Shown: in pieces, positions 35,791 through 52,986 of the stretch | Layout: the number at the start of each line of letters is the position of its first letter | Position numbering within the stretch: the stretch's first letter is position 1 | Source: Verrucomicrobium sp. | GTDB lineage: Bacteria; Verrucomicrobiota; Verrucomicrobiia; Methylacidiphilales; GAS474 | Assembly: GCA_028283855.1 (NCBI GenBank) | Contig: JAPWJX010000003.1 | Location: 992,001 to 1,056,000, forward strand | Length of the DNA stretch: 64,000 bases | Direction of reading: 5' to 3' | Made by a program: the position numbers and the translations under genes | The notes under the pieces: model-generated | Databases searched by the model: none | Seen by the model: the letters and a program-made list of their open reading frames with translations, nothing else | What the model was told of the DNA's origin: nothing

Positions 35791-36735
35791 ATGCCCTCCC
35801 CTTCGCACCTTCCCGTTCTGTTGGCCGCCTTCCTGGATCTGGCCAAGCCGGCGCCCGGCTCCCGCTGGGTGGACGGCACCTTCGGGCGCGGCGGGCACAC
35901 GCGGGCGCTCCTGGAGCGGGGCTGCCTGGTGCTGGCTTTGGACCGGGACGCGGCGGCAATGGCGGCGGCCTCCCGGCTGCAGGACTCCTTTCCCTCGCAA
36001 ATGAAGGCGGCGCATAGCGATTTCCGCGACCTGGCCGCCCGCGCCGCCGAGATCGGCTGGGACGAGGTCGACGGGGTCCTCCTGGACCTCGGCGTCTCCT
36101 CCCCCCAGCTTGACGATCCCGCGCGCGGCTTCAGCTTCCGCCACGAGGCCCCGCTCGACATGCGCATGGACCAGCGGCAGGAGGAGACCGCGGCCAAGCT
36201 CGTCGGCCGCCTCGAGGAGGAGGAGCTGGTCGAGCTCTTCATGACCCTGGGCGACGAGCCGAAGAGCGACGCCCGCCGCATCGCCCGCGCCATCATCACC
36301 CGCCGCTTCGACCGCCCCATCGCCACCACCGCCGACCTGGCGGAAGTCGTCGCCGACGCGCTCCCGCGCCGCCGCCACGGCCGCATCCATCCGGCCACCC
36401 AAGTCTTCCAGGCCCTTCGCATGCGGGTCAACCGCGAGCCGGAGGCCCTGGAAAAGGCTTTGCCCACCGCCACGGAAATCCTCCGCCCCGGCGGCGTCCT
36501 GGCCGTCATCAGCTTCCATTCCGGCGAGGACCGCGTGGTGAAGCACTTCATGCGGGAGGGCGCGCGCGTCCACCTGCCCACCCCCGCCTTCGACCCCGTG
36601 CCGAAGCCGAATCCCGGCCACGTCTTTTCCCGTGTCGAGCGCGCCCTCCCGGACGAGGCCGAGCTTTCCGAAAACCCGCGCGCCCGCAGCGCCCGCCTCC
36701 GCGTGGCGTGGAAGAAGGGAGGGCTCCCCGCATGA
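35791..36735 (+). CDS. rsmH: 16S rRNA (cytosine-1402-N4)-methyltransferase
   Basis: 314 aa SAM-dependent methyltransferase (MraW). HLPVLLAAFLDL, WVDGTFGRGGHTRALLERG (SAM loop), LLDLGVSSPQLDDPARGFSF, LDMRMDQ, and VISFHSGEDRVVKHFMR are all present; the usual FHSLEDR reads FHSGEDR. It modifies C1402 of 16S rRNA at the base, the same nucleotide whose ribose is methylated by RsmI, encoded 25 kb away in this window. The ftsL ATG overlaps its stop. Confidence 0.95.
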   Translation: MPSPSHLPVLLAAFLDLAKPAPGSRWVDGTFGRGGHTRALLERGCLVLALDRDAAAMAAASRLQDSFPSQMKAAHSDFRDLAARAAEIGWDEVDGVLLDLGVSSPQLDDPARGFSFRHEAPLDMRMDQRQEETAAKLVGRLEEEELVELFMTLGDEPKSDARRIARAIITRRFDRPIATTADLAEVVADALPRRRHGRIHPATQVFQALRMRVNREPEALEKALPTATEILRPGGVLAVISFHSGEDRVVKHFMREGARVHLPTPAFDPVPKPNPGHVFSRVERALPDEAELSENPRARSARLRVAWKKGGLPA

Positions 36736-37085
36736 GCCGCAACCGCGTCCGCACCACCCACACCCTGCACTGGGCGGCGGTAACCCGCTGGATCGCCATC
36801 CTCGTTTTGGCCTGCGCCCTCCTGGGCAGCTACGTCGTGCTGAAGAACAAGGTCCTGCGCCTGGCGGCCGAGGTCCACGACCGGGAGGTCGAGCTCGATT
36901 CCTGGCAGAAGCGCAACCAGCAGCTCCAATGCAACCTGGCGCGCATCACCTCCTTCCAGGCCCTCCAGCAGCGGCTGGGCCTGCGCAGCGGCCTGGTCAA
37001 CATCGGCCAGCTGGAGATCGTCCGCATGGAGAGCTTCGGCATGGCCAGCACCACGGTGCCCCGCGTCGGCGGAGTGGCCCCATGA
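36732..37085 (+). CDS. ftsL: Cell division protein FtsL-like
   Basis: 117 aa bitopic membrane protein. A membrane helix near residues 20-38 (WIAILVLACALLGSYVVL) is followed by a coiled-coil-like stretch with leucine spacing (VLRLAAEVHDREVELDSWQK, LQCNLARITSFQALQQRLG). FtsL sequence is poorly conserved; size, topology and the place between rsmH and ftsI support the call. The ATG overlaps the rsmH stop (ATGA), and ftsI starts at its stop (ATGATG). Confidence 0.8.
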   Translation: MSRNRVRTTHTLHWAAVTRWIAILVLACALLGSYVVLKNKVLRLAAEVHDREVELDSWQKRNQQLQCNLARITSFQALQQRLGLRSGLVNIGQLEIVRMESFGMASTTVPRVGGVAP

Positions 37086-38845
37086 TGCTGCGGAACCGAG
37101 CCCTGTGGGTCTTCGTGTTCCTGTCGTTCGGGTTCACCCTCATCTCCTACCGCCTCGTCCAGATCCAGCTGGCGGAGCATGAGCACTACCGCCTGCTGGC
37201 CATGGAGAACCACTGCGACCGCGTGGAGCTTCCCGCCCGCCGCGGCATGATCCTGGACAGCCAGGGCCAGATCCTGGCGGAGACGCAGGTGCTGCACGAC
37301 GTGCGCGTCGACGGGCGCAACCTCCTCCAGCCCGGCCAAACCCTGCCGGAGATGGAGCACCTCCTGGGCGCCGCCCCGGGCAGCCTCTCCAAGATCTTCA
37401 AGCCGGAGAACCGCTACCAGCTCCTGGCCCGCGACGTCACCGACGAGCAGGTCTCCTCTCTCAAGGACTTCCAGCGCCGCAAGTGCGCCGCCTGGGACAA
37501 GGCCCGCCTCAAGCCCCAGGCCTTCCTCACCATCGAGGAGCACTACCTGCGCACCTACCCGAACGGCTCCCACGCCAGCCACCTGATCGGCTACCTCGGC
37601 GGGGAGGAAAAGGGCGTCTCCGGCGTGGAGAACACGGGCGACGCCTTCCTGCGCGGCATCCCCGGGGAGCAGTGGATCGAGAAAGACCCGCGCGGCCGGG
37701 AAATCGCGGGCTACCGCGGGCGCGACCAGCAGCCGGTCGATGGCTACAACGTCGTCCTCACCCTCGACATGGCCGTCCAGCACGTCCTGGAGGACGGCCT
37801 GGACAAGCTGGTGGAGAAATACCACCCCGCCGGCGTCTACGCCATCTGCATGCGGCCGAAGACGGGCGAGATCCTCGGCCTGGCCAACCGCCCCACCTTC
37901 GACCCCAACCACCGTTCCGGCGTCCCCATGGCGGCCTTCCGCAACCGCTGCATGACCGACATGTTCGAGCCTGGCTCCACCTTCAAGATCGTCACCCTCT
38001 CCGCCGCCCTCAACGAGGGGCTCTTCCACCTCGACTCCCAGATCTTCTGCGAAAACGGCAGCTTCTTCTACGCCGACCACTGGCTGCACGACGCCGAGCC
38101 CAGCGGCACCCTTACCGTCGCCCAGGTCCTGGCCCGTTCCAGCAACATCGGCTTTGCCAAGATCGGCCTGGAGCTGGGGGAAAACCGCCTCTACGACTAC
38201 GCCCGCCGTTTCGGCTTCGGCGAGCAGACCGGCCTTCTCCCGCACCAGGGGGAGGCCATGGGCGTCCTGCGCCCCGTCTCCGCCTGGTCGAAGCTCTCAC
38301 CCACCCGCGTGCCCATGGGGCAGGAAGTCGCCGCCACGCCGCTGCAGATGGCCACCGCCATGTCGGTCATCGCCAACCGCGGCAGCCTCGTCCGCCCCCG
38401 CCTCATCCAGGAGATCACCGACGGGCAGGGCCGCGTCATCAAGTATTTCCCCCCGCAGGTCGTCCAGCGCGTCATCCGGCCGGAGACCGCCGTGCAGGTC
38501 TCCCACGCCCTGGCGGGCGTCGTCGAGGACGGCACCGCCGTGAAGGCCGCCATCCCCGGCCTCACCGTGGCGGGCAAGACCGGCACCGCGCAGAAATTCA
38601 TCCACGGCTCCTACTCCTCGGACAAATACCTGGCCTCCTTCATCGGTTACGTGCCGGAGGAAGACCCGCAGTTCGTCCTCCTCGTCATGGTCGACGAGCC
38701 CCGGACCCGCAACTACTTCGGCGGGCAGGTCGCCGCGCCCGCCTTTTCCGAGATGGGCGCGCAGATCGCCGACATTCTCAACCTGGCGCCGCAGAGCGCC
38801 CCGGCCCAGATGGCGGGGCCCGTGGCCAAGCGGGGGAGCTTCTAG
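37082..38845 (+). CDS. ftsI: Peptidoglycan transpeptidase FtsI (PBP3)
   Basis: 587 aa class B penicillin-binding protein for septal cross-linking. Membrane helix at residues ~8-26, a non-catalytic domain starting RRGMILDSQGQILA, and the transpeptidase domain with S299-T-F-K302, S353-S-N355 and K499-T-G501. The catalytic set is intact. ATG 37082 overlaps the ftsL stop and is followed by a second ATG. MurE starts 1 base after its stop. Confidence 0.96.
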   Translation: MMLRNRALWVFVFLSFGFTLISYRLVQIQLAEHEHYRLLAMENHCDRVELPARRGMILDSQGQILAETQVLHDVRVDGRNLLQPGQTLPEMEHLLGAAPGSLSKIFKPENRYQLLARDVTDEQVSSLKDFQRRKCAAWDKARLKPQAFLTIEEHYLRTYPNGSHASHLIGYLGGEEKGVSGVENTGDAFLRGIPGEQWIEKDPRGREIAGYRGRDQQPVDGYNVVLTLDMAVQHVLEDGLDKLVEKYHPAGVYAICMRPKTGEILGLANRPTFDPNHRSGVPMAAFRNRCMTDMFEPGSTFKIVTLSAALNEGLFHLDSQIFCENGSFFYADHWLHDAEPSGTLTVAQVLARSSNIGFAKIGLELGENRLYDYARRFGFGEQTGLLPHQGEAMGVLRPVSAWSKLSPTRVPMGQEVAATPLQMATAMSVIANRGSLVRPRLIQEITDGQGRVIKYFPPQVVQRVIRPETAVQVSHALAGVVEDGTAVKAAIPGLTVAGKTGTAQKFIHGSYSSDKYLASFIGYVPEEDPQFVLLVMVDEPRTRNYFGGQVAAPAFSEMGAQIADILNLAPQSAPAQMAGPVAKRGSF

Positions 38846-38846
38846 C

Positions 38847-40280
38847 ATGACCCTGGGCGACCTCCTCCCCGTCCTGCCCGAGGCCCGCGTCGAGGGCCCC
38901 GTCGACCGGCCCCTCTCCGCCCTCCGCTACGACTCCCGCCGCGTCGAGGCGGGCGACATCTTCTTCGCCTGGAAGGGCGCCGGTTTCGACGGCCACCAGT
39001 TCGTCCCCGACGCCTGCCGCCGGGGCGCCGCCGCCGTCGTCCTGGAGCGGGAATTGGAACGGCCGGAGAACGCCGCCTTCGTCCGCGTCCCGGACGCCCG
39101 CCGCGCCCTGGCCCTCCTGGCGGGCCGCTATTACGGCAACCCCGCCGCCAAGCTGGAAATGGTCGGCGTCACCGGCACAAACGGGAAGACCACCACCGCC
39201 TTCGTCGTCCAGCACCTCCTGGGCGGGAAAATCGGCCTCCTGGGCACGGTCCACTACCAGACCGGCGCGGAGACGCTCCCCGCCTCCCGCACCACCCCGG
39301 AGGGCTCAGACCTCCAGGAAATGCTGGCCAAGATGGTCGCCGCCGGCTGCCGCGCCGCCGTCATGGAGGTCTCCTCCCACGCCCTCGACCAAGGCCGCGT
39401 GGCCGGGATCGGGTTCGCCGCCGCCGTCTTCACCAACCTGACGCCCGACCACCTCGACTACCACCCGACGATGGAGGCCTACTTCGAGGCCAAGCGGCTC
39501 CTCTTCTCCCAGTCCCGCGCCGCCGTCGTCAACCTGGACGACCCCTACGGCCGCCGCCTGGCCGGGGAGCTGGCGGGCGAGGTCATCGCCTTCAGCCCCT
39601 CCGGCGCCGCCGCCGCGCCGCTCCGTGCCGAGAACGTCCGCACCACCCCGCGCGGCACCGAGTTCGAGCTGGTTTGGAAGGAGCTTCGCCTCCCTGTCCG
39701 CATGCCGCTCTTGGGGGACTTCAACGTTGCCAACGTCCTCGGCGCGCTCGGCGCCTGCCTGGCCCTGGGCCGCCCGGTGGAGGAGCTGGCCGCCCGCCTG
39801 GAAAGCCTGCCCGCCGTGCCGGGCCGTCTGGAACGCTTCGGGAAGGAAGGGCAGCCCTCCGTCGTCGTCGACTACGCCCACACGGAAGACGCCGTCCGCA
39901 AGGCCCTGGCCACCCTGCGCCAATTGCGGCCGAAGCGCCTCGCCGTCGTCCTCGGCTGCGGGGGCAGCCGCGACCGGACCAAGCGCCCCCGCATGGCCGC
40001 CGCCGCCGTCGAGCTGGCCGACCGCGTCTACTTCACCTCCGACAACCCGCGCGGCGAAAGCCAGGAGCAGATCTTCGCCGACATGCGCGCGGGCGTCCCC
40101 GCCGAGGCCCCGGCCGCCTGGATCGCCGACCGCCGGGAGGCCATCGCCCGCGCCATCGCGGAAGCGGGCCCGGACGACCTCGTCTGCATCGCGGGCAAGG
40201 GCCATGAGTCGACCCAGGAAATCGCCGGCGTCCACCACCCCTTCAGCGACCGCGACGTGGTCGGGGAGATCCTCGCCTAA
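38847..40280 (+). CDS. murE: UDP-MurNAc-tripeptide synthetase (meso-diaminopimelate-adding)
   Basis: 477 aa Mur ligase. ATP loop VGVTGTNGKTTTAF (residues ~110-123), central domain with MEVSSHALDQGRV, TNLTPDHLDYH, and the C-terminal domain with VVVDYAHTEDAVRKAL. The third-residue selectivity motif reads SDNPRGES, the DNPR form that binds meso-diaminopimelate, so the peptidoglycan stem peptide should contain mDAP. Also GKGHESTQEI near the end. Normal length and order. Confidence 0.96.
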   Translation: MTLGDLLPVLPEARVEGPVDRPLSALRYDSRRVEAGDIFFAWKGAGFDGHQFVPDACRRGAAAVVLERELERPENAAFVRVPDARRALALLAGRYYGNPAAKLEMVGVTGTNGKTTTAFVVQHLLGGKIGLLGTVHYQTGAETLPASRTTPEGSDLQEMLAKMVAAGCRAAVMEVSSHALDQGRVAGIGFAAAVFTNLTPDHLDYHPTMEAYFEAKRLLFSQSRAAVVNLDDPYGRRLAGELAGEVIAFSPSGAAAAPLRAENVRTTPRGTEFELVWKELRLPVRMPLLGDFNVANVLGALGACLALGRPVEELAARLESLPAVPGRLERFGKEGQPSVVVDYAHTEDAVRKALATLRQLRPKRLAVVLGCGGSRDRTKRPRMAAAAVELADRVYFTSDNPRGESQEQIFADMRAGVPAEAPAAWIADRREAIARAIAEAGPDDLVCIAGKGHESTQEIAGVHHPFSDRDVVGEILA

Positions 40281-40284
40281 TTAT

Positions 40285-41679
40285 ATGGAGCCGATCCTTC
40301 TCCGCGATTTGGCCGCCATGATGGACGGGGCGATCCTCCAGGGGGAGGGGACCCTGCCCGTCGCCCGCCTCCACACGGACAGCCGCACCGTCCGCCCCGG
40401 GGACGGCTTCGTCGCCCTCGTCGGCGACCGCTTCGACGGGCATGACTACCTGGCCGCCGCCGCCGCGCAGGGCGCCGTGGCGGGCATCGTCTCCCGCGCC
40501 CGCGCCACCCTGCCGGACGTGCCGCCCCGCTTCGGCCTGGTCGCCGTTTCGGACACCGTTGCCGCCCTGCAGCGCTGCGCCGTCTCCTACCGGCAGGCCC
40601 GGGCCGCCCGCGTCGTCGCCGTCACCGGCAGCAGCGGCAAGACGAGCACCAAGGAGATGATCGCCGCCGTCCTGGGCGTCCGCTTCCGCGTCGCCGCCAC
40701 CCAGGGGAACCTGAACAACCACCTGGGCGTCCCGCTCACCCTCCTGCGCATCGAGCCGGAGACCGACTACGCCGTTGTCGAGATGGGGATGAACCACCGC
40801 GGGGAGATCGCCCCCCTGGCCGCCATGGCCGCCCCCTCCATCGCCGTCGTCACCGGAGTCGGCTCCGCCCACATCGAGCACCTCGGCAGCCGGGAGGCCA
40901 TCGCGGAGGAGAAGACCGACCTCGTCGCCGCCCTGCCGGAAGACGGCGCGGCCATCCTCAACGGGGACGACCCCCTCCTGCGCCGCCACGGCGCGCGCGC
41001 CCGCTGCCGCATCGTCTGGACCGGCTCCGCCGCCGATGCCGCCTGGCGCGCGGAGGACGTCCGCTTCACCCCGCAGGGCGTCGCCTTTCGCCTGTGCGGC
41101 CCGTCGGGAGCCGCGCAGGTCCTCCTGCCCGTCCACAGCCGCGTCATGATCGGCAACGCCCTCCTGGCCGCCGCCGTCGGCGCGGAGGCGGGCCTTTCCG
41201 TGGAGGAGATCGCCTCCGGCCTTTCCTCCGTCCGCCTCGCCGGAGGCCGGATGGAAGTCCGCCCGCGCGGGGAAGGCTGGCTCATCGACGATTCCTACAA
41301 CGCCAACCCCGAGTCGATGGAGGCGGCCCTGGCCTCCCTCCGGGAATTCCCCGCCCCGGGCCGCCGCGTGGCGGTCCTCGGCTCCATGGGAGAGCTGGGC
41401 GCGGAGGCCCCGGCCCTCCACCGGCGCGTCGGCGCGGCGGCGGCCCAGGCCGCGCCGGACCTGCTGGTCGTCGTCGGCCCGCACGCCGCCGAGCTGGAGG
41501 CGGGCGCCCGCGAGGGCGGCCTAAAGGAAATCCGCCGCTTCGCCACGACGGCGGAGGCCGCCGCCGCGCTCCCCGCCCTGGCCCGGGAGGACGACACCGT
41601 CCTCATCAAAGGCTCCCGTTTCATGAAGCTGGAGGCCGTCGCGGCGGCTCTCGGCCAGGCCCCCACCCTTTCTCACTAG
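40285..41679 (+). CDS. murF: UDP-MurNAc-tripeptide:D-Ala-D-Ala ligase
   Basis: 464 aa Mur ligase that adds D-Ala-D-Ala, completing the pentapeptide precursor. Motifs: HTDSRTVRPGDGFVAL in the N-terminal domain, VTGSSGKTSTKEM (ATP loop), TQGNLNNHLGVPLTLLR, EMGMNHRGEI, and DDSYNANPESMEAAL in the C-terminal domain, followed by VLIKGSRFMKLE. The start ATG 40285 is 4 bases after the murE stop; a longer open frame upstream overlaps murE and is not real. Confidence 0.95.
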   Translation: MEPILLRDLAAMMDGAILQGEGTLPVARLHTDSRTVRPGDGFVALVGDRFDGHDYLAAAAAQGAVAGIVSRARATLPDVPPRFGLVAVSDTVAALQRCAVSYRQARAARVVAVTGSSGKTSTKEMIAAVLGVRFRVAATQGNLNNHLGVPLTLLRIEPETDYAVVEMGMNHRGEIAPLAAMAAPSIAVVTGVGSAHIEHLGSREAIAEEKTDLVAALPEDGAAILNGDDPLLRRHGARARCRIVWTGSAADAAWRAEDVRFTPQGVAFRLCGPSGAAQVLLPVHSRVMIGNALLAAAVGAEAGLSVEEIASGLSSVRLAGGRMEVRPRGEGWLIDDSYNANPESMEAALASLREFPAPGRRVAVLGSMGELGAEAPALHRRVGAAAAQAAPDLLVVVGPHAAELEAGAREGGLKEIRRFATTAEAAAALPALAREDDTVLIKGSRFMKLEAVAAALGQAPTLSH

Positions 41680-41688
41680 ACCCACGAG

Positions 41689-42795
41689 ATGCTTTACTAC
41701 CTCCACTACCTCAGCGGCTACTTCGGCGGGTTCAACGTCTTCCGCTACATCACCTTCCGTGCCGCGGCGGCCACCCTTACCGCGCTGATCTTCACCTGGA
41801 TCATCGCCCCCGCCCTCATCCGGGCCCTCACCCGGCTGAAGATGGGCCAGCCCCTGCGCGGCAAGGAAGAGGTGCGCGACCTGGCCGCCCTTCACCAGGG
41901 CAAGAAGGGGACGCCCACCATGGGCGGCCTCCTCATCATCTTCTCCGTGGCGGTCAGCTCCCTCCTATGGGTCGACTTTAAGGCGGCCAACCTCGTCTGG
42001 CTCGCCCTCGGCGCGATGGTCTTCCTGGGCGGCGTCGGCTTCCTGGACGACTACTTGAAGGTCTCCAAGAAAAAGTCGGCGGGCCTCCCTGGGCGGCTGA
42101 AGATCGTCGCCCAGGTCGGCACCGCGCTGGTGGTCGGCGGCGTCCTCCTTTCCGATCCCCTCTACGCCGACCGGATCGCCCGCGTCGACATCCCCTTCAC
42201 CCGCGGCCTGACCTTCCTTCACCTCGGCTTCTGGGCGGCGCTCTTCTTCTTCTCCCTCGTCGTCACCGGCTCCTCCAACGCCGTGAACTTGACCGACGGC
42301 CTCGACGGCCTGGCCACCGGCTGCACGCTGACCGTGGCGCTCGTCTTCGCCGTCTTCGCCTACATCGCGGGCAACCTAGACCTGGCGCAATATCTCTTCG
42401 TCTCCCACATCCGCAACGCGGGGGAGCTTTCCATCTTCTGCGCGGCGCTCATCGGGGCGTGCCTCGGCTTCCTGTGGTTCAACTGCCACCCCGCCCGCGT
42501 CTTCATGGGGGATACCGGCTCCCTGGCCATCGGCGGGGCCATCGGCGTCGTCTCCATCTGCGTGGCGCAGGAATTCCTCCTGGTCATCGCCGGGGGGATC
42601 TTCGTCGTCGAGGCGCTCTCCGTCATCCTCCAGGTCGCTTCCTTCAAGCTGACCGGCAAGCGGATCTTCGCCATGGCGCCGCTCCACCACCATTTCGAGC
42701 TGAAGGGCTGGGCCGAGTCCCAGGTCACCATCCGGTTCTGGATCATTAGCCTGCTCTGCGGCCTTCTGGCCCTCTCCAGCTTGAAACTCCGTTAG
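41689..42795 (+). CDS. mraY: Phospho-MurNAc-pentapeptide translocase MraY
   Basis: 368 aa polytopic membrane enzyme that makes lipid I from UDP-MurNAc-pentapeptide and undecaprenyl phosphate. Conserved loops: GTPTMGGLLII, DDYLKVSKK, SSNAVNLTDGLDGLATG with the active-site Asp residues, FMGDTGSLAIGG and APLHHHFELKGW. About ten hydrophobic segments. In most bacteria murD follows; here the next gene is the LysM protein. Confidence 0.97.
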   Translation: MLYYLHYLSGYFGGFNVFRYITFRAAAATLTALIFTWIIAPALIRALTRLKMGQPLRGKEEVRDLAALHQGKKGTPTMGGLLIIFSVAVSSLLWVDFKAANLVWLALGAMVFLGGVGFLDDYLKVSKKKSAGLPGRLKIVAQVGTALVVGGVLLSDPLYADRIARVDIPFTRGLTFLHLGFWAALFFFSLVVTGSSNAVNLTDGLDGLATGCTLTVALVFAVFAYIAGNLDLAQYLFVSHIRNAGELSIFCAALIGACLGFLWFNCHPARVFMGDTGSLAIGGAIGVVSICVAQEFLLVIAGGIFVVEALSVILQVASFKLTGKRIFAMAPLHHHFELKGWAESQVTIRFWIISLLCGLLALSSLKLR

Positions 42796-42842
42796 TCAAA
42801 CCGAACCAAAACAACCCAACCCAAAATCCAAAAGGAAACCAC

Positions 42843-43856
42843 ATGAAGAACCTGTTCAAAAACCTGGCGGCCCGGAAAGGCCGGTTCCGCCTCCGCAACG
42901 AGGTGCCCGCCTCCAAGTCCGACGGCCTCGTCGAATCGGGCGCGTCCGAAGGCACCGGCGGCCTCAAGCTGGTCACCGTTTTCATCGCCGTGCTCGCCCT
43001 GCACGTCCTGGTGATCGGCAGCATCAGCGCCTACCACTTCTTCAAGGGCTCGACTGACGTCGCCACGACGACCGGCGCCGAGGGGACGACCCCCGAGGCG
43101 GCCGCCCCGGACGGCGCCACGATCGACAAGCCGACCGCCGCGGGCCTGGCCGCCGCCGGTACGCCGGAAGCCTCCAAGGACGGCGCGCCCACGATCGACA
43201 GCAACGCCGTCGCCGCCGCGCCGATCCCGACTCCCTCGGTGACCGCTCCCGCCGCCCCGGCCGCCGCCGATCCCGCTCCGGCCCTGCCGCCCGCCCCCGC
43301 GCTGGCGGAAGCCACGGCGCCCGCCGCTCCCGTCCCGGCTCCGATCGCCCCGGCCAAGCCGGCGGTCGCCGCCGCTCCGGCCAAGGCCGCCGCTCCGGCC
43401 AAGGCCGCCGCTCCCGCCGCCACCTACGTCGTGAAGAAGGGGGACACCCTTCACCGCGTCGCCCAGGCCCACGGCATGACCGTCGCCCAGGTGAAGGCCC
43501 TCAACGGCCTCAAGGGGAACGCCCTGCGCGTCGGCCAGAAGCTGGCCGTGAAGGGCACCGCCGCTTCCGCCGCCGGCACCGCCGTGGCCGCCGCGGCTCC
43601 CGCCGCCACCGCGACCGCGGGCAAGAGCTACAAGGTCGTCAAAGGAGACACCCTGGCCCGGATTGCCCGGACCTTCCGCGTCTCCCCCTCCGCCCTCATG
43701 GCGGCCAACAAGCTGAGCGATCCGCGCAAGCTGAAGGTCGGCGCCGTCCTGGTCATCCCGGGCCACTCCGCCACCGCGCAATCCTCCACGCACGTGATGC
43801 CCGCCGCCACGGCCCCCAGCCGCCAGTCGGCCTCCAGCCTCGCGGCCAACAAGTAA
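42843..43856 (+). CDS. Membrane-anchored protein with two LysM domains
   Basis: 337 aa. A ~40-residue cytosolic head, one membrane helix (LVTVFIAVLALHVLVIGSIS, about 42-61), a ~130-residue Ala/Pro linker, then LysM 1 (YVVKKGDTLHRVAQAHGMTV, ~196-240) and LysM 2 (YKVVKGDTLARIARTFRV, ~263-308). LysM binds N-acetylglucosamine in peptidoglycan, so it probably ties the division complex or inner membrane to the wall. The linker contains a perfect 18-base tandem duplication near 43370-43405. It occupies the murD place in the dcw order. A G-poor, A/C-rich 46-base leader precedes it. No enzymatic domain is visible. Confidence 0.85.
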   Translation: MKNLFKNLAARKGRFRLRNEVPASKSDGLVESGASEGTGGLKLVTVFIAVLALHVLVIGSISAYHFFKGSTDVATTTGAEGTTPEAAAPDGATIDKPTAAGLAAAGTPEASKDGAPTIDSNAVAAAPIPTPSVTAPAAPAAADPAPALPPAPALAEATAPAAPVPAPIAPAKPAVAAAPAKAAAPAKAAAPAATYVVKKGDTLHRVAQAHGMTVAQVKALNGLKGNALRVGQKLAVKGTAASAAGTAVAAAAPAATATAGKSYKVVKGDTLARIARTFRVSPSALMAANKLSDPRKLKVGAVLVIPGHSATAQSSTHVMPAATAPSRQSASSLAANK

Positions 43857-43880
43857 TCCGGTAAGAGCCTCCCCCCTCCG

Positions 43881-45047
43881 ATGAACCCCAGCACCATCCA
43901 GCGTCAGGTCGGCTACGTCCTGCTCGTCACGGTCTTGAGCCTGATGGTCCTGGGCATCGTGATGCTCCTGAGCATCAGCGGCAAACTGGCCGCGGAGGGA
44001 TCGGGGGCCATCTACGGGGCTCTGCAGAAGCAGGGAGCCTGGATGATCCTGGGAGGAATAGCCTGCGCGGTGGTTTCCCGCGTCGACTACCATTGGTTCG
44101 TGCGGCGTTCCGGCTGGATTCTGGCCGGCGCCGCCTTCCTCCTGCTCCTGGTCTTCGTGCCCCACCTGGGGAAGAAGGTCAACGGCTCCTGGCGCTGGAT
44201 CAGCGTCGGGGGCATGACCCTCCAGCCGTCGGAAGTGGTGAAGTGGGCCCTGGTCCTCTTCACCGCTTCCTGGCTGGGGCGCTACCAGCGCCGCCTCCTG
44301 TGGAAGGGGGTCTTGGTCCCCTTCGCCGTCACGGTGGGTCTGGTCCTGGTCCTCGTCGTCTCGCGCGACCTGGGCAGCGCCGCCCTCCTCTGCACCGCGC
44401 TCACCGTCCTCCTCTTCGTCGCGGGGACGCCGAAACGCTATCTTTTGCCCGTGCCGCTCCTTGGCTTCGGCGGCCTCTTTGCCATGGCGCTGGCCATGCC
44501 GGAGCGCCGCGCCCGCCTCTTGGCCTTTCTCCACCCGGAGGAGAGCAAGGCGGGGAAAGGCTACCAGGTCTACCAGGCCCTCATCGCCCTGGGCTCCGGC
44601 GGGCCCACCGGCCTGGGCCTGGGCAACAGCCGGCAGAAAATGTACTACCTGCCGGAAGCCCCCACCGACTTCATCTTCCCCATCGTCGGGGAAGAAATGG
44701 GCCTCTGGGTCTCCCTGGCGGTGGTCCTCGCCTTCCTCGTCATCCTGCTTTGCGGCGGGTGGATCACCCTCCACGCGCCCGATCCCACCGGCGTCCTCCT
44801 GGGCGCGGGGCTGACCTCCCTCATGGCCGTGCAGGCCATGGTCAACCTCTGCGTCGTCACCGCCCTCCTGCCGAACAAGGGCCTGCCCCTGCCGTTCATC
44901 AGCTACGGCGGGTCGAACCTCCTTTTCTGTTTCTTATGCGTCGGGATGCTTTTCAACCTCCAGCGCCAAGGCGTCTGCGAGGATCCCGAGCCGGTCGAAA
45001 CCATCCTCCCCCAGGGCCGCGGCCAAGGGGCCACGGTGAGAATCTAG
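43881..45047 (+). CDS. ftsW: Septal peptidoglycan glycosyltransferase FtsW
   Basis: 388 aa SEDS-family polytopic membrane protein. Family features: NGSWRWISVGGMTLQPSEVVK, ALIALGSGGPTGLGLGNSRQK, YLPEAPTDFIFPIVGEEMGL (with the catalytic Asp loop), and NKGLPLPFISYGGSNL. Together with FtsI it builds septal peptidoglycan. Where most FtsW proteins have QPDLGT the sequence reads SRDLGSA. About ten membrane helices. It starts 24 bases after the LysM gene. Confidence 0.95.
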   Translation: MNPSTIQRQVGYVLLVTVLSLMVLGIVMLLSISGKLAAEGSGAIYGALQKQGAWMILGGIACAVVSRVDYHWFVRRSGWILAGAAFLLLLVFVPHLGKKVNGSWRWISVGGMTLQPSEVVKWALVLFTASWLGRYQRRLLWKGVLVPFAVTVGLVLVLVVSRDLGSAALLCTALTVLLFVAGTPKRYLLPVPLLGFGGLFAMALAMPERRARLLAFLHPEESKAGKGYQVYQALIALGSGGPTGLGLGNSRQKMYYLPEAPTDFIFPIVGEEMGLWVSLAVVLAFLVILLCGGWITLHAPDPTGVLLGAGLTSLMAVQAMVNLCVVTALLPNKGLPLPFISYGGSNLLFCFLCVGMLFNLQRQGVCEDPEPVETILPQGRGQGATVRI

Positions 45048-46153: not shown

Positions 46154-48438
46154 GCGAAAAGATCGAGTCCATCCTGTCCCAGCCCGGCGCCCGCATCCAC
46201 CTGATCGGCGTGGGCGGCAGCGGCATGAGCGCCCTGGCGCGTCTCCTGTTGGCCAACGGCTTTCGCGTCTCCGGCTCCGACCTGCGCGGCTCCACGCTCC
46301 TGGAAAAGCTCGTCCCCCTGGGCCTTTCCTTCCAGGAAGGCCACCGCGGGGAGTGGGTCCAGGGCTGCGACTTGGTCGTCCACTCCTCCGCCATCGGGGA
46401 TGGGAACGCGGAGCGGATCGAGGCCGGGAAGCTCGGCATCCCCACCGCCCGCCGCGCGGAGGTCCTGGCCGTCCTGGCCCGCCGCCCCGGGAAAGAGGCC
46501 GTCGTCGTAGCCGGCATGCACGGAAAGACGACCACCACCAGCCTCCTGGCCCACGTCCTGCGCGAGGCGGGCCGCCGCCCCAGCCACTACGTCGGCGCGG
46601 AGGTGCCCGTCCTGGGCGCCAGCGCCGTGTGGGACGAGGGCGCGGAGATCGTCATCGAGGGGGACGAGAGCGACGGCACCTTGACTTTCTTCCACCCCGC
46701 CCACGCCATCCTTCTCAACATCGAGGAAGAGCACCTCGACCACTACGGCGACATCAAGGCGATCCTGGAAACCTTCTCCCGCTTCCTCGACCAGACCTCC
46801 GGCGCCGTCATCTACTGCGCCGACGACCAGAACACCGCCCTCCTCTGCTCCCAGCGCCCCCGCGCCATCGGCTACGGGCTGGGAGAGGGGGCCCACTACC
46901 GCGCGGTCAACCTGGTCAGCCGCGACTTCTCCTCCGAGTTCGAGGTGCTGCGGGAGGGTGAGCTGCTGGGCCGCTTCCACCTGCCCATCCCCGGCTCCCA
47001 GAACGTCAGCAACGCCCTGGCCGTCATCGCCATGGCCACGGAGCTGGGCCTGGGCCGGGAGGCCATCGCCCGCGCCCTGGGCGAGTTCCGCGGCGCCAGC
47101 CGCCGCTTCGAGACCAAATACCGCAGCGAGAACTTCATGGTCGTCGACGACTACGCCCACCACCCCACCGAGATCCGCGCCACCCTGGCGGCGGCGCGCT
47201 CCGGCGGGTGGAAGCGGATCGTCGCCCTCTTCCAGCCCCACCGCTACACGCGCACCCAATCCCTCAAGGACGAGTTCGCCACCGCCTTCCAGGAAGCGGA
47301 CAAGGTCTTCCTCACCGGCATCTACGCCGCCAGCGAGGCGCCCATCGAGGGCGTCTCCGGCCAGGCCCTCGCGGAGGCCGTGCAGGCCGCCGGGCACCCC
47401 TCCGTCGTCTATGAGGAGAGCCTCCGCCGCCTGCGCCGCCGCGTCGCCCAGGAGATCGAGCCGGGAGACCTGGTCCTGACCCTCGGCGCCGGCGACATCC
47501 ATGAGACGGCCACCGCCCTGGCCGAGGAGCTGGCCTGGTATGAAGGGCTTCGCTCCCAATTGAGTTCGGAGAGCAAGCTCCTGCGCCAGGAGCCGATGCG
47601 CAAGCACACCTCCATCCGCGTCGGCGGCCCCGCGCAGTTCTGGTTCGAGCCCGCGAGCGAGGAAGACCTCATCGCCGGCCTGCGCCACGCCCACCGCCAC
47701 GGCGTGCCCGTCACCCTCATCGGGCGCGGCACCAACCTGCTGGTGCGGGACGGCGGCATCGCCGGGCTCTCCATCTACCTGGGCAACCCCTACTTCTCCC
47801 GCATCGAGATCGAGGGAGAGCAGATCACCGCCGGGGCGGGAGCGCCCCTGCGCGCCATCGTCGCCGCAGCCAAGAAAAAGGGCCTGGGCGGCATCTCCTT
47901 CATGGAGGGGATCCCCGGCAACCTAGGCGGCGCGCTGCGCATGAACGCCGGGGCCATGCACGGATGGACGATGGAAGTCGTCGAGCAGCTGCGCGTCGTC
48001 GATCGCGAGGGCCGCGTGAAGACGTACGACCGGCACGAGCTGGAGGTGCGCTACCGCAGCGTGCCGCTCTTGGAAGACCACATCGCCCTCTCCGCGCGCC
48101 TGCGCGGCACGCCCACGGAGCCCGCGAAGATTGACGAGGAGCTGAAAACCTTCAGCAAAAAGCGGTGGACCAGCCAGCCCGCCGCGCCGTCCGCAGGCTG
48201 CATTTTCAAGAACCCCGCGGAGGGCTCGGCCGGGCGGATTATTGATGAGTCCGGCCTTAAAAACTTAAATTTCGGAAAAGCGCGAGTTTCCGATGTACAT
48301 GCAAATTTTATTGTGAATGATGGGGGCGCATCGGCCATGGAGATCCGCGAATTGATGAAAATGGTGCAGCAGCGCGTGAAGGAAGCGCGCGGCATCGATT
48401 TGGAGCCCGAGGTCATCATCCTGGGGGACGAGGAATAA
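46150..48438 (+). CDS. murC/murB: Bifunctional MurC-MurB fusion (UDP-MurNAc:L-Ala ligase / UDP-GlcNAc-enolpyruvate reductase)
   Basis: 762 aa. Residues 1 to ~460 are MurC: IHLIGVGGSGMSALARLL, VAGMHGKTTTTSLLAH (ATP loop), EGDESDGTLTFF, LNIEEEHLDHY and VDDYAHHPTEIRATL. From ~475 MurB follows: HTSIRVGGPAQFWFEP, LIGRGTNLLVRDGG, FMEGIPGNLGGALRMNAGA (FAD binding), PSAGCIFKNPAEG with the catalytic region, and VSDVHANFIVNDGGA. Both halves look complete. The GTG 46150 overlaps the murG stop and ddl overlaps the end. The fusion would join the MurB product step to the first ligase step. The MurB end contains a ~90-base A+T-rich patch. Confidence 0.95.
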   Translation: MSEKIESILSQPGARIHLIGVGGSGMSALARLLLANGFRVSGSDLRGSTLLEKLVPLGLSFQEGHRGEWVQGCDLVVHSSAIGDGNAERIEAGKLGIPTARRAEVLAVLARRPGKEAVVVAGMHGKTTTTSLLAHVLREAGRRPSHYVGAEVPVLGASAVWDEGAEIVIEGDESDGTLTFFHPAHAILLNIEEEHLDHYGDIKAILETFSRFLDQTSGAVIYCADDQNTALLCSQRPRAIGYGLGEGAHYRAVNLVSRDFSSEFEVLREGELLGRFHLPIPGSQNVSNALAVIAMATELGLGREAIARALGEFRGASRRFETKYRSENFMVVDDYAHHPTEIRATLAAARSGGWKRIVALFQPHRYTRTQSLKDEFATAFQEADKVFLTGIYAASEAPIEGVSGQALAEAVQAAGHPSVVYEESLRRLRRRVAQEIEPGDLVLTLGAGDIHETATALAEELAWYEGLRSQLSSESKLLRQEPMRKHTSIRVGGPAQFWFEPASEEDLIAGLRHAHRHGVPVTLIGRGTNLLVRDGGIAGLSIYLGNPYFSRIEIEGEQITAGAGAPLRAIVAAAKKKGLGGISFMEGIPGNLGGALRMNAGAMHGWTMEVVEQLRVVDREGRVKTYDRHELEVRYRSVPLLEDHIALSARLRGTPTEPAKIDEELKTFSKKRWTSQPAAPSAGCIFKNPAEGSAGRIIDESGLKNLNFGKARVSDVHANFIVNDGGASAMEIRELMKMVQQRVKEARGIDLEPEVIILGDEE

Positions 48439-49349
48439 TGAGCGCCAAGCCCTCCCACGTCGCCGTCCTCAAGGGCGGCCCCTCCGCCGAGCGCGAGGTC
48501 TCCCTGCGCACCGGCGCCGCCTGCGCCGCCGCCCTGCGCGAGCGCGGCTACACCGTCGACGAGATCGACGTGGCCGGCCGCGACTTCACCCTGCCCGCGG
48601 GCGTCGAGTTCGTCTTCATTTCCCTGCACGGCGCCTTCGGCGAGGACGGCGAGGTCCAGGCCTACCTGGAAAAGCACGGCTTCCCCTACAGCGGCTCCGG
48701 CGTCGCCGCCAGCCGCCTGGCCATCGACAAGGAGGCCAGCAAGGAGGCCTTCCGCCGGGAGAGAATCCCCACGCCGGAAGGCGTCACCGTCGGCAGGGGC
48801 GATCCGGCCCCCGCCCTCCAGCCGCCCCTGGTCGTGAAGCCCTACTGCGAGGGTTCCTCCCTCGGCATGAGCTTCGTCTTCGAGGAAAAGGAACTGGCGC
48901 CCGCGCTGGACAAGGCCTTCGAGCTGGGGGAGCGCGCCGTCGTCGAGCGCTACATCAAAGGCCGGGAGCTGACCGTCTCCATCCTGGGCGGCGAGGCCCT
49001 GCCCATCGTCGAGATCGCGCCGAAGGAAGGCTTCTACGACTACACGAACAAATACACCGCCGGGAAGACCGACTACCTTTGCCCCGCCCCGCTCGACGCC
49101 GAGCTGACCCGCCGCGTGCAGGAAATCTCCCTGCGCGCCCACCGCGCCCTGGGCTGCGAGGTCTACTCCCGCGTCGACATCATGCTCGACGCCGACTCCA
49201 ATCCCTACGTCCTGGAGGTGAACACCATCCCCGGCATGACCGCCACCAGCCTCCTGCCGAAGGCGGCGGCCGCCGCCGGGATCCCTTTCCCGGAACTCTG
49301 CGAGCGGATCCTCCTCCTCTCGCTTCAGCGCTTCCCCGCAACCGTCTAA
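48438..49349 (+). CDS. ddl: D-alanine--D-alanine ligase
   Basis: 303 aa ATP-grasp ligase making the D-Ala-D-Ala used by MurF. VAVLKGGPSAEREVSLRTG at the N terminus, LHGAFGEDGEVQAYLE, YSGSGVAASRLAIDKEASKE, VVKPYCEGSSLGMSFV, and EVNTIPGMTATSLLPKAA near the C terminus are the family markers. The start shares one base with the murCB stop (TAATG). In Chlamydiae ddl is fused to murC; here it stays separate but directly adjacent. Confidence 0.96.
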   Translation: MSAKPSHVAVLKGGPSAEREVSLRTGAACAAALRERGYTVDEIDVAGRDFTLPAGVEFVFISLHGAFGEDGEVQAYLEKHGFPYSGSGVAASRLAIDKEASKEAFRRERIPTPEGVTVGRGDPAPALQPPLVVKPYCEGSSLGMSFVFEEKELAPALDKAFELGERAVVERYIKGRELTVSILGGEALPIVEIAPKEGFYDYTNKYTAGKTDYLCPAPLDAELTRRVQEISLRAHRALGCEVYSRVDIMLDADSNPYVLEVNTIPGMTATSLLPKAAAAAGIPFPELCERILLLSLQRFPATV

Positions 49350-49353
49350 AGCC

Positions 49354-50214
49354 ATGTCCGTCCGCCGCCGCATCAACCGCCCCCGCACCTCGCAGGCCCA
49401 CATCCTCTTTGCCACGACGGGCAAGCGCCCCTCGCGCCAAACGCTGGCCAAGTACGGCGTGGCCGTCCTCCTCCTGGGCCTGAGCCTCACCGCCGTCGGC
49501 CTGGGCACCCACTACGTGGTGGAGGGCTTCCTGCGCCGCGCCCTCTACGAGAATCCCCACTACGCCCTGCGCCAGATCGTCGTCGACGCAAAGGGCGGCG
49601 CGCAGCGCAAGCAGGTCGTGCAGGCCACGCGCCTCCAGATCGGCCAAAACCTGATGGCCGTCGACCTGAAGGAAGTGGAGCAGAACGTCGACAACCTCCC
49701 CTACATCGCCCAGGCCCGCGTGCAGCGCATCCTGCCGGACACCATCCGCGTGGAGGTCACGGAGCGCCAGCCCCTGGCCCGCATCGTCTCCCAGCGTACC
49801 GACCTGAACATGCGGGAAGTCTTCTACCTGGACCGGGACGGCGTGGCCGTGAAGCCCCAGGCCAACGAGTCCCTGCGCGGCCTGCCGGAAATCGTCGGCG
49901 GCCCCTTCGTCGACGTGGAATCCGGCCAGCGCTTCGACCAGCCGGAAGTCCAGGCCGCCTTGGGCGTCCTCAAGCAGCTGGAGCTGACCCCCTTGCGGGC
50001 CGACTTCGACGTCGCCTGGCTCGACCTCTCCCACCCGCTGGCCGTCTCCCTCATGACGCGGGACGGCGCGCAGATCCTCTTCCGCCTGGACAACTTGTCC
50101 CAGCAGATGGAACGGCTCCAGCAGATCATCCGCTTCGCCCAGGCGCGGCAGCGGCGCGTGGCGCTGGTCGACCTGACGCCCGACCGCAACGTCCCCGTCC
50201 GTTTCCGCAACTAA
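49354..50214 (+). CDS. ftsQ: Cell division protein FtsQ
   Basis: 286 aa. A basic cytosolic head, one membrane helix (YGVAVLLLGLSLTAVGLG, about 34-51), a POTRA domain (LRQIVVDAKGGAQRKQVVQA) with the typical DLKEVEQNVDNLPYIAQARVQ and ILPDTIRVEVTERQPLA segments, then the FtsQ beta domain (REVFYLDRDGVAVKP). FtsQ joins FtsL and FtsB to the division site. Place before ftsA agrees. 47 bases of G-poor sequence separate it from ftsA. Confidence 0.9.
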   Translation: MSVRRRINRPRTSQAHILFATTGKRPSRQTLAKYGVAVLLLGLSLTAVGLGTHYVVEGFLRRALYENPHYALRQIVVDAKGGAQRKQVVQATRLQIGQNLMAVDLKEVEQNVDNLPYIAQARVQRILPDTIRVEVTERQPLARIVSQRTDLNMREVFYLDRDGVAVKPQANESLRGLPEIVGGPFVDVESGQRFDQPEVQAALGVLKQLELTPLRADFDVAWLDLSHPLAVSLMTRDGAQILFRLDNLSQQMERLQQIIRFAQARQRRVALVDLTPDRNVPVRFRN

Positions 50215-50261: not shown

Positions 50262-51503
50262 ATGTTCTGGAAAAAAGATCGCAACATCGTCGTCGCCCTG
50301 GAGGTGGGCAGCAGCAAGGTGGTCGCCGCCGTGGCGGAACTCCGGGAGGACGGCTCCCTGGTCATCCTGGGCGTGGGCGAGAGCCAGTCCCACCAGGTGC
50401 GGAAGTGTGAGATTATCGATTTCGAGATCGCCCAGAAATGCGTGCACGACGCGATCAACGACGCGGAAGAGAAGACCGACGTCACCATCAACGAGGTCTA
50501 CCTGGCCATTTCTGGCGCCCACATCCGCTCCGCCAACGCGCAGCTGACCACCTACATCGCCACCGAGGGGCACGAGATCATGCCCGAGCACTTGGAGGAG
50601 CTGGCCTCCATGGCCCGCCAGCAGCCCCTGCACAGCGGTTACGCCCTCATCCACGACCTCATCCAGCACTACCGCCTGGACGACGGTTCCGTGACGGAAA
50701 ACCCCGTCGGCCTCTCCTCCAAGCGGCTGCAGGCGGAATACCACCTGGTCTCCGGGATCAACACCCGCCTCCAAACCACCATCCGCTGCGTGCGGGAACT
50801 CTCCGTCGACGTGCGCAACTACGCCCTGAGCATCTACGCCACCGCCCAGGCCGTCCTCACCCCGGAAGAGAAGCAGGAAGGCGCCGTCGTCATCAACTGC
50901 GGCGCGGGCGTCACCGACTACCTCGTCTACCAAAACGGCTCCGTCGTCCACAGCGGCGTCCTGGGCGTGGGCGGCGACCACCTGACCAACGACCTCGTCG
51001 CCGGCCTCAAGCTGCCCTTCGTCAAGGCGGAGCAGCTCAAGCGCGAACACGGCTCCGTCCACGAGGAATCGATGGACGGCGACCTGGGCGGCAGCGTCGT
51101 CATCCCCGGCAGCTACAGCTTCGAGGAGCGCGCCGTCCGCCGCCAGGCCGTCCTCACCATCATGCAGGCCCGCCAGGCGGAGCTGCTCCAGATCATCCGG
51201 GACGACTTGGAGGCCCAGCCCTTCTGGCCCGACTTCGCCGGCTCCATCCACTTCACCGGCGGGGCGGCCCAGGTGCGCGGCCTCATCGAGCTGGCCTCGG
51301 AGATCTTCTCCTGCCCCGTGAACCTCGCCGGCGGCTGCCCGCTGGAAGGGGACCAGGGCTACGCCTCCCGGCCGGAACTTTCCACCGTCCTGGGCCTGCT
51401 CCACTACGCCCGCGTCGTGGAGGAGGAAATCCCGTCCCCCGGCGCGTGGGGCCGCATGCGCCAGAAAGTCGGCAAGGCCCTGGCCGCCCTCGGCCTCTTC
51501 TAA
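50262..51503 (+). CDS. ftsA: Cell division protein FtsA
   Basis: 413 aa actin-like ATPase that tethers FtsZ to the membrane. Features: VALEVGSSKVVAAVAELRED (phosphate 1), the 1C domain with EVYLAISGAHIRSANAQ, VVINCGAGVTDYLVYQNG (phosphate 2), GVGGDHLTNDLVAGLKLPF, and FTGGAAQVRGLIELASEIF (adenosine motif). A C-terminal amphipathic helix (WGRMRQKVGKALAALGLF) fits the membrane anchor. Its leader contains almost no G and only a weak AAGAA ribosome site. Confidence 0.93.
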   Translation: MFWKKDRNIVVALEVGSSKVVAAVAELREDGSLVILGVGESQSHQVRKCEIIDFEIAQKCVHDAINDAEEKTDVTINEVYLAISGAHIRSANAQLTTYIATEGHEIMPEHLEELASMARQQPLHSGYALIHDLIQHYRLDDGSVTENPVGLSSKRLQAEYHLVSGINTRLQTTIRCVRELSVDVRNYALSIYATAQAVLTPEEKQEGAVVINCGAGVTDYLVYQNGSVVHSGVLGVGGDHLTNDLVAGLKLPFVKAEQLKREHGSVHEESMDGDLGGSVVIPGSYSFEERAVRRQAVLTIMQARQAELLQIIRDDLEAQPFWPDFAGSIHFTGGAAQVRGLIELASEIFSCPVNLAGGCPLEGDQGYASRPELSTVLGLLHYARVVEEEIPSPGAWGRMRQKVGKALAALGLF

Positions 51504-51540: not shown

Positions 51541-52986
51541 ATGATCAACTTTATGCGCGACGACTTTTCCGAAGGCGGTTCCCCCTTGGCCGAAGACGGC
51601 GGCCGGGGCCTCCTCCTGGGCATCGGCCAGGCGGGAATCCAGATCCTCGACCAGATCGTGATGCGCGGCGGCGCCAAGGCCTCCGGCTTCGAGCTGATGG
51701 CCATCGACGCCGACCAGGCGATCGTGGACGGATCGGTGGTCGCGGAGAAGCGCCTCCTGGGCAAGCCCCTCCTGCGCGGCCTCGGCAGCTTCGGGGACCG
51801 CGCCCGCGCCCGCGCCGTCTGGAAGCTGGAGCGGGAGAGCCTCCTGGACCGCCTCTCCGTCGTCGACCAGCTCGTGATCGTCGCCGGGCTCGGCGGCGGC
51901 ACCGGCACCACCCTGGCCATGGAAGTCGCCCAGGCCTTCCGCAACCGCCCGCGCGGCGGCCGCGTCATCGTCGTCGCCACGCAGCCCTTCTCCTTCGAGT
52001 CGGACGCCCGCCGCGCCGCCGCCCAGGAGGCCCTCTCCGTCCTGCGCGCCCATGCGGACGCCGTCCTCTCCTTCTCCAACGACCGGGCGGAGGCCTGGCC
52101 CGACGCGCCGGACAATATCCGCCGCGGCCTGCACGGCATGAACCTTTCCCTGGCCCAGGGCGTCGAGTCGGTCGCCCAGATCCTGGCCGCGGGCGGCTTC
52201 AACCCCCTGACCTTCGCCGACCTGCGCGGCCTCTTCGGCCGCCTGGAAGGCGCCGCCCGCCCGGAAAACTGCTGGATCGGCCGCGCCGATTCCGAGCCGC
52301 ACGACGACGCCCTCTCCCTTGTCGAGCGCGCCCTCTCCGGCCCCCTCGTCGCCTCCGGCGGCGCGTGGGAGGAGGCCGACCGCTGCCTGGCCTGCCTCGT
52401 CGGCGGGGCCGACTTCTCCGTCAGCCAGCTCCAGGCCGTCTCCAAGGCCATCGAGGCGCGGCTGCCCGCTCACATCGCCGTCTCCCTGGGCACCCGCACC
52501 GCGGAGCGGTTCGAGGGGCGCCTCTCCCTCACCCTCGTCCTGGCCGCCACCCGCGCGCGGGAAATCGAGGAAGCGGCCCTGTCCGAAGAGGAAGCCGCCC
52601 CGCAGGCCCTCATCCAGGAAGTCGTCCTGCCGCTCGACAGCGACGTGCTCGCGCCCGTTCCGAAGCCCCTGCACGCCTCCGCCGTCGAGGAGCAGCTTGA
52701 ATTGGTCGACGAAGCCGCCCCGGTCGAGGCCGAGGTCCTGCCGGAACCCGAGTTGGCCGCCGCCGCGCCGGAGCCCGAGCCGAAGCGCAAGGCCGTCCCC
52801 GTTCCCGTGGCCGACCTGGCCCGCCCCGCCAAGGTCCGCCGCGGCTCCAAGGCCGTGAAACAGGAGGAGCTTCCCTTCGAGGCGGCCAACAGCGGCCGCT
52901 TCGAGAACAGCTTCGAGACGATCCACAAGGGCGAGAACCTCGACCAGCCTACCTTCCGCCGCCGCCGCCTGGTCATCCAGGCGTAG
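51541..52986 (+). CDS. ftsZ: Divergent FtsZ (tubulin-like division GTPase)
   Basis: 481 aa. The GTP-binding signature is GLGGGTGTT (residues 116-124); T1 reads GIGQAG (27-32) and T3 includes IDADQA. The T7 synergy loop reads NPLTFADLRG (221-230): aligned by FAD, the catalytic Asp of the usual NxDFAD is a Thr (224), while the second Asp (227) is kept. A ~110-residue acidic/Pro linker precedes a C-terminal LDQPTFRRRRLVIQA, which resembles the FtsA-binding peptide. The place after ftsA identifies it as FtsZ; sequence divergence suggests altered GTP turnover. No purine-rich ribosome site is visible in the pyrimidine-rich 37-base gap upstream. Confidence 0.88.
   Translation: MINFMRDDFSEGGSPLAEDGGRGLLLGIGQAGIQILDQIVMRGGAKASGFELMAIDADQAIVDGSVVAEKRLLGKPLLRGLGSFGDRARARAVWKLERESLLDRLSVVDQLVIVAGLGGGTGTTLAMEVAQAFRNRPRGGRVIVVATQPFSFESDARRAAAQEALSVLRAHADAVLSFSNDRAEAWPDAPDNIRRGLHGMNLSLAQGVESVAQILAAGGFNPLTFADLRGLFGRLEGAARPENCWIGRADSEPHDDALSLVERALSGPLVASGGAWEEADRCLACLVGGADFSVSQLQAVSKAIEARLPAHIAVSLGTRTAERFEGRLSLTLVLAATRAREIEEAALSEEEAAPQALIQEVVLPLDSDVLAPVPKPLHASAVEEQLELVDEAAPVEAEVLPEPELAAAAPEPEPKRKAVPVPVADLARPAKVRRGSKAVKQEELPFEAANSGRFENSFETIHKGENLDQPTFRRRRLVIQA

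Follow-up and report, generated by a model that had tools for sequence, protein, structure and literature searches.

Introduction

In Staphylococcus aureus FtsZ, the catalytic water is held by both Asp residues of the T7 loop: D210 positions it by swinging, and D213, together with R143, sets its environment (PMC8936486). Each of the substitutions N208L, D210N and D213N abolishes assembly of the S. aureus protein, and the equivalent Escherichia coli FtsZ mutants do not complement (PMC8936486). Because each of these T7 residues is essential in S. aureus and E. coli, an active site with a single acid is unexpected unless it is compensated elsewhere. The need for FtsZ hydrolysis and treadmilling in division has been argued mainly from mutants in a few model species.

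In the phylum Verrucomicrobiota, ftsZ of V. spinosum is essential by TraDIS (PMC12283558), and an earlier description terms its product canonical but divergent and notes eight unusual positions in its core and an intact GGGTGSG (PMC1845146). For M. infernorum, which belongs to the window's order, accelerated evolution of ftsZ, with data not shown, and losses of other division genes were reported (PMC2474590), and a broad phylogeny places verrucomicrobial FtsZ among the most divergent (PMC9871819). A text search of this literature, partly in excerpt, returned only comments that verrucomicrobial FtsZ is divergent or evolves fast, and no mention of loss or alternation of the T7 acids. Outside the bacteria, FtsZ of Nitrosopumilus maritimus has degenerate T4 and T7 loops and forms no filaments in yeast, and this organism uses the Cdv machinery instead (PMC3684127).

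Here, we analyze the ftsZ gene in a 64,000-nucleotide stretch of verrucomicrobial DNA (the window) and compare its product with FtsZ across the phylum. We find that in Verrucomicrobiota one of the two T7 acids can be lost but hardly ever both. We suggest, with a probability of just under 0.6 and from sequence comparison, that the window encodes the sole division FtsZ of its host and that this protein would hydrolyze GTP, although more slowly, in an active site reduced to one acid.

Results

A single ftsZ at the end of the dcw cluster

The window carries a dcw cluster in the order mraW, ftsI, murE, murF, mraY, ftsW, murG, murCB, ddl, ftsQ, ftsA and ftsZ, in which ftsI, murE, murF, mraY, murG and murCB were assigned from ORF translations:

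35791..45047, + strand: remainder of the dcw cluster (mraW, ftsI region, murE, murF, mraY, LysM protein, ftsW)
up to 48438: murG and murCB, next after ftsW
48438..49349, + strand: ddl, D-Ala-D-Ala ligase
49354..50214, + strand: ftsQ (POTRA_1, FtsQ_DivIB_C)
50262..51503, + strand: ftsA, adjoining ftsZ upstream; canonical (TIGR01174, 297.6 bits, cut-off 175.85)
51541..52986, + strand: ftsZ (481 aa), sole PF00091 gene in the genome, with an AlphaFold2 model compared by Foldseek to solved FtsZ structures

The placement of ftsZ in its normal operon, noted in a sequence-only reading of this DNA, is therefore correct, with ftsQ-ftsA-ftsZ closing the cluster. ftsA is present in nearly all ftsZ loci examined. 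murC and murB are fused in a single ORF (46150-48438, start approximate), as reported for V. spinosum. A gene for a LysM-domain protein (42843-43856) lies between mraY and ftsW, a frequent site of murD, and no murD ORF was seen between these two genes.

The ftsZ ORF matches PF00091 (Tubulin/FtsZ) with an E value of 5.8e-21 and 76.1 bits, over the cut-off of 33. Its FtsZ_C domain (PF12327) scores 23.1 bits, under the cut-off of 27, and was likewise below cut-off in the genome search; at 117.9 bits, the protein also misses the TIGR00065 equivalog cut-off of 295.2. An AlphaFold2 model built from 52 sequences of the phylum has a pLDDT >90 over most of the core, and the top Foldseek matches of this predicted fold are all solved FtsZ structures (E 7e-28), with TM scores of 0.74-0.86, depending on the target, among the matches listed. 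Operon, single copy, C-terminal tail and predicted fold identify the gene as ftsZ by descent. Since its product fails the equivalog cut-off and, as detailed below, the T4 signature and the T7 NxDxxD motif, we file it as a variant rather than a canonical member.

A second ftsZ or a tubulin gene, which the sequence-only reading had considered, was found neither in the window genome, where the PF00091 search gave the single match, nor in the closed genome of the same genus. It could be argued that a second, canonical FtsZ resides in the unassembled part of the genome and that the window copy is a paralogue with another job, given that the assembly (2.56 Mb) is 95.6% complete and that one genome of the same order (G024) has two divergent copies. 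A canonical copy in the missing ~4% is unlikely because the closed genome G002 (same genus, one contig, 99% complete) carries just one PF00091 match, with the T7 sequence SSVSFADLR. Moreover, a single ftsZ is found in several Methylacidiphilaceae genomes assembled as one contig and in nearly every other genome, the window gene itself lies in the dcw operon beside ftsA, and neither of the G024 copies is canonical. We regard a hidden copy as very improbable. The two G024 genes (L016, L073) lie on separate contigs, and their T7 loops read IQLTFADL and LVTLDEV. In other classes of the phylum, seven genomes have two PF00091 matches (G201, G205, G209, G211, G228, G245 and G258), which are possibly second FtsZ or FtsZ-like genes.

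The active site retains one T7 acid and the catalytic Arg

In phmmer alignments to solved FtsZ structures, the query segment GFNPLTFADLR pairs without gaps with GLINVDFADVK of M. jannaschii. The nucleotide site and tail comprise:

51619..51636, + strand: T1 loop GIGQAG, altered from the canonical GxGGGG/GxGGAG (GxGGxG)
51892..51912, + strand: T4 tubulin signature GGGTGTT, with Thr for the last Gly of GGGTGTG
52009..52011, + strand: Arg157, equivalent to E. coli R142 and S. aureus R143, the catalytic Arg, kept and nearly invariant
52201..52224, + strand: T7 synergy loop NPLTFADL, from the phmmer alignment to solved FtsZ
52204..52206, + strand: Pro222, in the T7 Asn column (E. coli N207, S. aureus N208)
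52210..52212, + strand: Thr224 (ACC), in the column of the first catalytic Asp (E. coli D209, S. aureus D210, M. jannaschii D235)
52219..52221, + strand: Asp227 (GAC), the second catalytic Asp (E. coli D212, S. aureus D213), kept
52939..52965, + strand: C-terminal peptide LDQPTFRRR, of the FtsA-binding type

Thus, T7 reads PxTxxD in place of NxDxxD, with the second Asp only; T4 (GGGTGTT) departs from GGGTG[ST]G; and the catalytic Arg is in place. The sequence-only reading had described the replacement of the first T7 Asp by Thr, the retention of the second, the changes in T1 and in the last T4 residue, and an FtsA-type C-terminal peptide, and all of these stand. It had also taken the Asn of NPLTF for the T7 Asn; this residue lies one position before the true column, which holds Pro222, and the loss of the T7 Asn was overlooked. 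Its view that the lost Asp is the one activating water is half right: in S. aureus FtsZ its counterpart D210 does hold the catalytic water, and so does D213, the counterpart of the second Asp (PMC8936486).

No other Asp falls in the catalytic column when the protein is aligned to solved structures. A substitute Asp nearby was ruled out in the window protein, in which position 211 is Ala. The peptide LDQPTFRRR ranks among the best-conserved parts of FtsZ in the clade.

Loss of the first Asp is shared across the order

The loss of the first Asp is no peculiarity of the window gene: the order lacks this residue, and in most of the phylum one or the other acid is gone. Among the sampled FtsZs of the order outside Methylacidiphilaceae, the first Asp is absent (Ser, His, Gly or Thr) with one exception (RDFSDLR in G006), and the second column is Asp or Glu in all. 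The idea that Thr224 reflects a misalignment or an error in sequencing found no support and merits next to no credence: the alignment to solved structures is ungapped, and in independent genomes of the order this column is likewise occupied by Ser, Thr, His or Gly, so the relatives answer the objection of chance or error as well. Alignment slip, pseudogene and hidden canonical copy were rejected on the structure alignment, the AlphaFold model and the closed same-genus genome.

T4 has decayed elsewhere in the order (GGATACM, AGSTGVA, GGGAGSA). In Methylacidiphilaceae, our coded family f8, identified via particulate methane monooxygenase (pmoA), the T7 NxDxxD motif is unrecognizable in all ten FtsZs (L063-L072, from genomes G014, G019, G023, G027, G038, G031, G035, G041, G044 and G050), T4 reads GGAMGSA, GGGMGSA, AGATGAT or GGTTGSE, and the FtsA-type C-terminal peptide is kept.

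One acid is often lost, both hardly ever

We scored the T7 acids in 157 Verrucomicrobiota FtsZs from 70 families, in an alignment that included E. coli and left out BtubA/B and Methylacidiphilaceae. Both acids are present in 28 sequences, the first only in 45, the second only in 80 (67 Asp and 13 Glu) and neither in 4. By family majority, 18 families have both, 19 the first only, 32 the second only and 1 neither (Fisher p 4e-6). The first-only type (e.g., NLDFATLR) is fixed among the sampled members of f19, f16, f41 and f44, and the second-only type is fixed in f32, f11 and the window's order, among others; taxon names of coded families are inferred apart from f8 (pmoA) and f32, which contains the BtubA/B genomes and hence is Prosthecobacter-like. 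That both acids are conserved outside Verrucomicrobiota is taken from PMC8936486 and a few PDB alignments.

Across the 151 genomes on the FtsA tree, 4 double losses were observed and ~25 are expected if the two sites are independent. The resulting ratio of 0.157 is the lowest in a comparison with 6,441 pairs of FtsZ sites of similar variability, whose own lowest ratio is 0.37 (0.58 among 230 close pairs). The strength of this rule hinges on Glu as an acid, because the ratio is 0.50, far less extreme, when Asp but not Glu is counted at position 212. The R142 column is Arg in 73 of the 80 second-acid-only sequences.

In 22 of these 80, position 211 (E. coli numbering) has become Asp, a change that recurs, as LDDL or FDDL, in lineages with Gly in place of the first T7 Asp (f11, f17, f29, f32, f39, f42 and others); local compensation by this residue is possible in those lineages, to which the window does not belong. 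In f31 (L078-L084), T4 takes forms such as GGETAS, GGDFGS and GGETGS, and three of the seven sequences (L078, L083, L084) retain neither T7 acid, the second column being His.

The alternation withstands correction for descent, and ftsZ is maintained but relaxed

On the FtsA tree, the two acid columns require at minimum 17 and 15 changes, respectively. Phylogenetically independent pairs gave ~4 opposite against 0.1 same, which agrees in direction with the alternation but is too few for significance, and because this comparison is under-powered, we turned to Pagel's test, for which other site pairs supplied an empirical null. The test gave a likelihood ratio (LR) of 28.0 on an FtsZ tree built without the T7 columns and, because the long branches of that tree made us distrust it, was rerun on the neighboring FtsA. 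There, the dependent model is preferred over the independent one with LR 29.1 (p 7e-6), against at most 17.8 for 48 random site pairs, an empirical null that is a partial guard against the tendency of Pagel-type tests to mislead with few deep events. In the fit, the first acid is lost at a rate of 0.73 with the second present and ~0.001 with it absent, and the second at a rate of 0.59 with the first present and 0.12 with it absent.

Where T7 is reduced, dN/dS in close pairs is mostly 0.03-0.24, a range that overlaps that of both-acid pairs (0.07-0.12); it is 0.28-0.36 in Methylacidiphilaceae and 0.52 for the window against L004, with several of the underlying dS values close to saturation. FtsZ identity is below that of FtsA by ~5-18 points in second-acid-only families and by 22, the largest gap, in Methylacidiphilaceae; FtsZ is about as conserved as FtsA in the main first-acid-only families and differs by +3 to -9 in both-acid families. 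Together, dN/dS and conservation relative to FtsA indicate that ftsZ is maintained but relaxed.

These data also bear on whether FtsZ is a decaying relic that no longer drives division, which would proceed by another route as proposed for N. maritimus (PMC3684127). Beside that precedent, the accelerated ftsZ and the other division gene losses reported for M. infernorum (PMC2474590), and the complete loss of ftsZ in Planctomycetota and Chlamydiota, would fit such a course. However, the window ORF is intact and under purifying selection, the FtsA-binding tail is conserved, ftsQ, ftsA and ftsW are intact, and a single ftsZ copy is kept across the order. The check for alternative division machinery, which covered MreB, found this protein present, as in many ordinary bacteria. 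We consider a relic improbable.

Discussion

The phylum-wide pattern suggests that one acid is enough for a running Z ring. We infer that, in the window FtsZ, the remaining acid would do the catalysis and that hydrolysis would be slow rather than normal or absent. As subunits join, the T7 loop of one enters the GTP pocket of the next; in the window protein, this loop presents a single acid, Asp227, and lacks the Asn by which cations are kept close to the gamma-phosphate. Together with Arg157 and the glycine of T3, Asp227 would still position and polarize the attacking water, and GTP hydrolysis and filament turnover would continue, probably slowly. The unusual kinetics or polymer stability that the sequence-only reading had envisaged are plausible.

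The main competitor holds that GTP hydrolysis is essentially lost and that GTP-bound filaments form a static or very slow scaffold bound to FtsA, with turnover left to other factors or unneeded and the remaining acid kept for the shape of the subunit interface. The loss of both the N207 and the D209 equivalents together with the altered T1 and T4 loops of the window protein, the wider T4 decay in the order and the complete loss of T7 in Methylacidiphilaceae all agree with this idea, as does the effect of D213N on assembly in S. aureus, so that this acid can belong to the interface (PMC8936486). The altered T1 and T4, the lower conservation of FtsZ than of FtsA and the dN/dS of 0.52 against L004 also fit catalytic decay. 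By contrast, most sequences retain the catalytic Arg together with the T3 Gly and one T7 acid, which is more easily explained if some catalysis is under selection. We therefore hold loss of hydrolysis in the window protein to be rather unlikely. The rule of keeping one acid is what would be expected if a single acid suffices to position the water, and for this reason we favor a working, slower GTPase over both a scaffold and a relic.

For the phylum as a whole, we propose, tentatively and at less than even odds, that the Z ring of Verrucomicrobiota has come to work on another principle: the two-acid T7 loop was relaxed early, with either acid alone serving in today's lineages and neither in Methylacidiphilaceae, where there would be little or no GTP hydrolysis. 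If true, natural mutation in this phylum would amount to an experiment on the need for treadmilling in division. The phylum offers at least 15-17 state changes per residue in a sole FtsZ and one cultured family without the loop; natural one-acid and no-acid FtsZs, some of them in culturable hosts, could separate hydrolysis, assembly and division.

Compared to canonical FtsZ (E. coli, S. aureus; TIGR00065), the window protein shares the predicted fold, the operon position, the FtsA-binding tail, the second T7 Asp and the catalytic Arg, but lacks the first T7 Asp and the T7 Asn, and the last Gly of T4 and one Gly of T1 are changed. Tubulin, by contrast, keeps in T7 the Asn and the first Asp that are both missing here. 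The acid kept in the window protein (Asp227) is in the column of the catalytic Glu254 of alpha-tubulin. beta-Tubulin faces a non-hydrolyzing site and lacks an acid in that same column.

Verrucomicrobial FtsZ generally (V. spinosum, Prosthecobacter) resembles the window protein in its long C-terminal linker and divergent core, in the murCB fusion and dcw context of its gene and in having mostly one T7 acid, whereas T4 is GGGTGSG in V. spinosum and altered in the window. FtsZ of Methylacidiphilum and Methylacidimicrobium likewise combines a reduced nucleotide site with an FtsA-type tail and, as noted without data in PMC2474590, accelerated evolution; it has no recognizable T7, whereas the window protein has one acid in a normal-looking loop. 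Finally, thaumarchaeal FtsZ (Nitrosopumilus, PMC3684127) also has degenerate T4 and T7 loops in a conserved FtsZ gene. However, Nitrosopumilus has lost T4 and T7 entirely and uses Cdv, whereas the window retains intact divisome genes and an intact FtsA tail.
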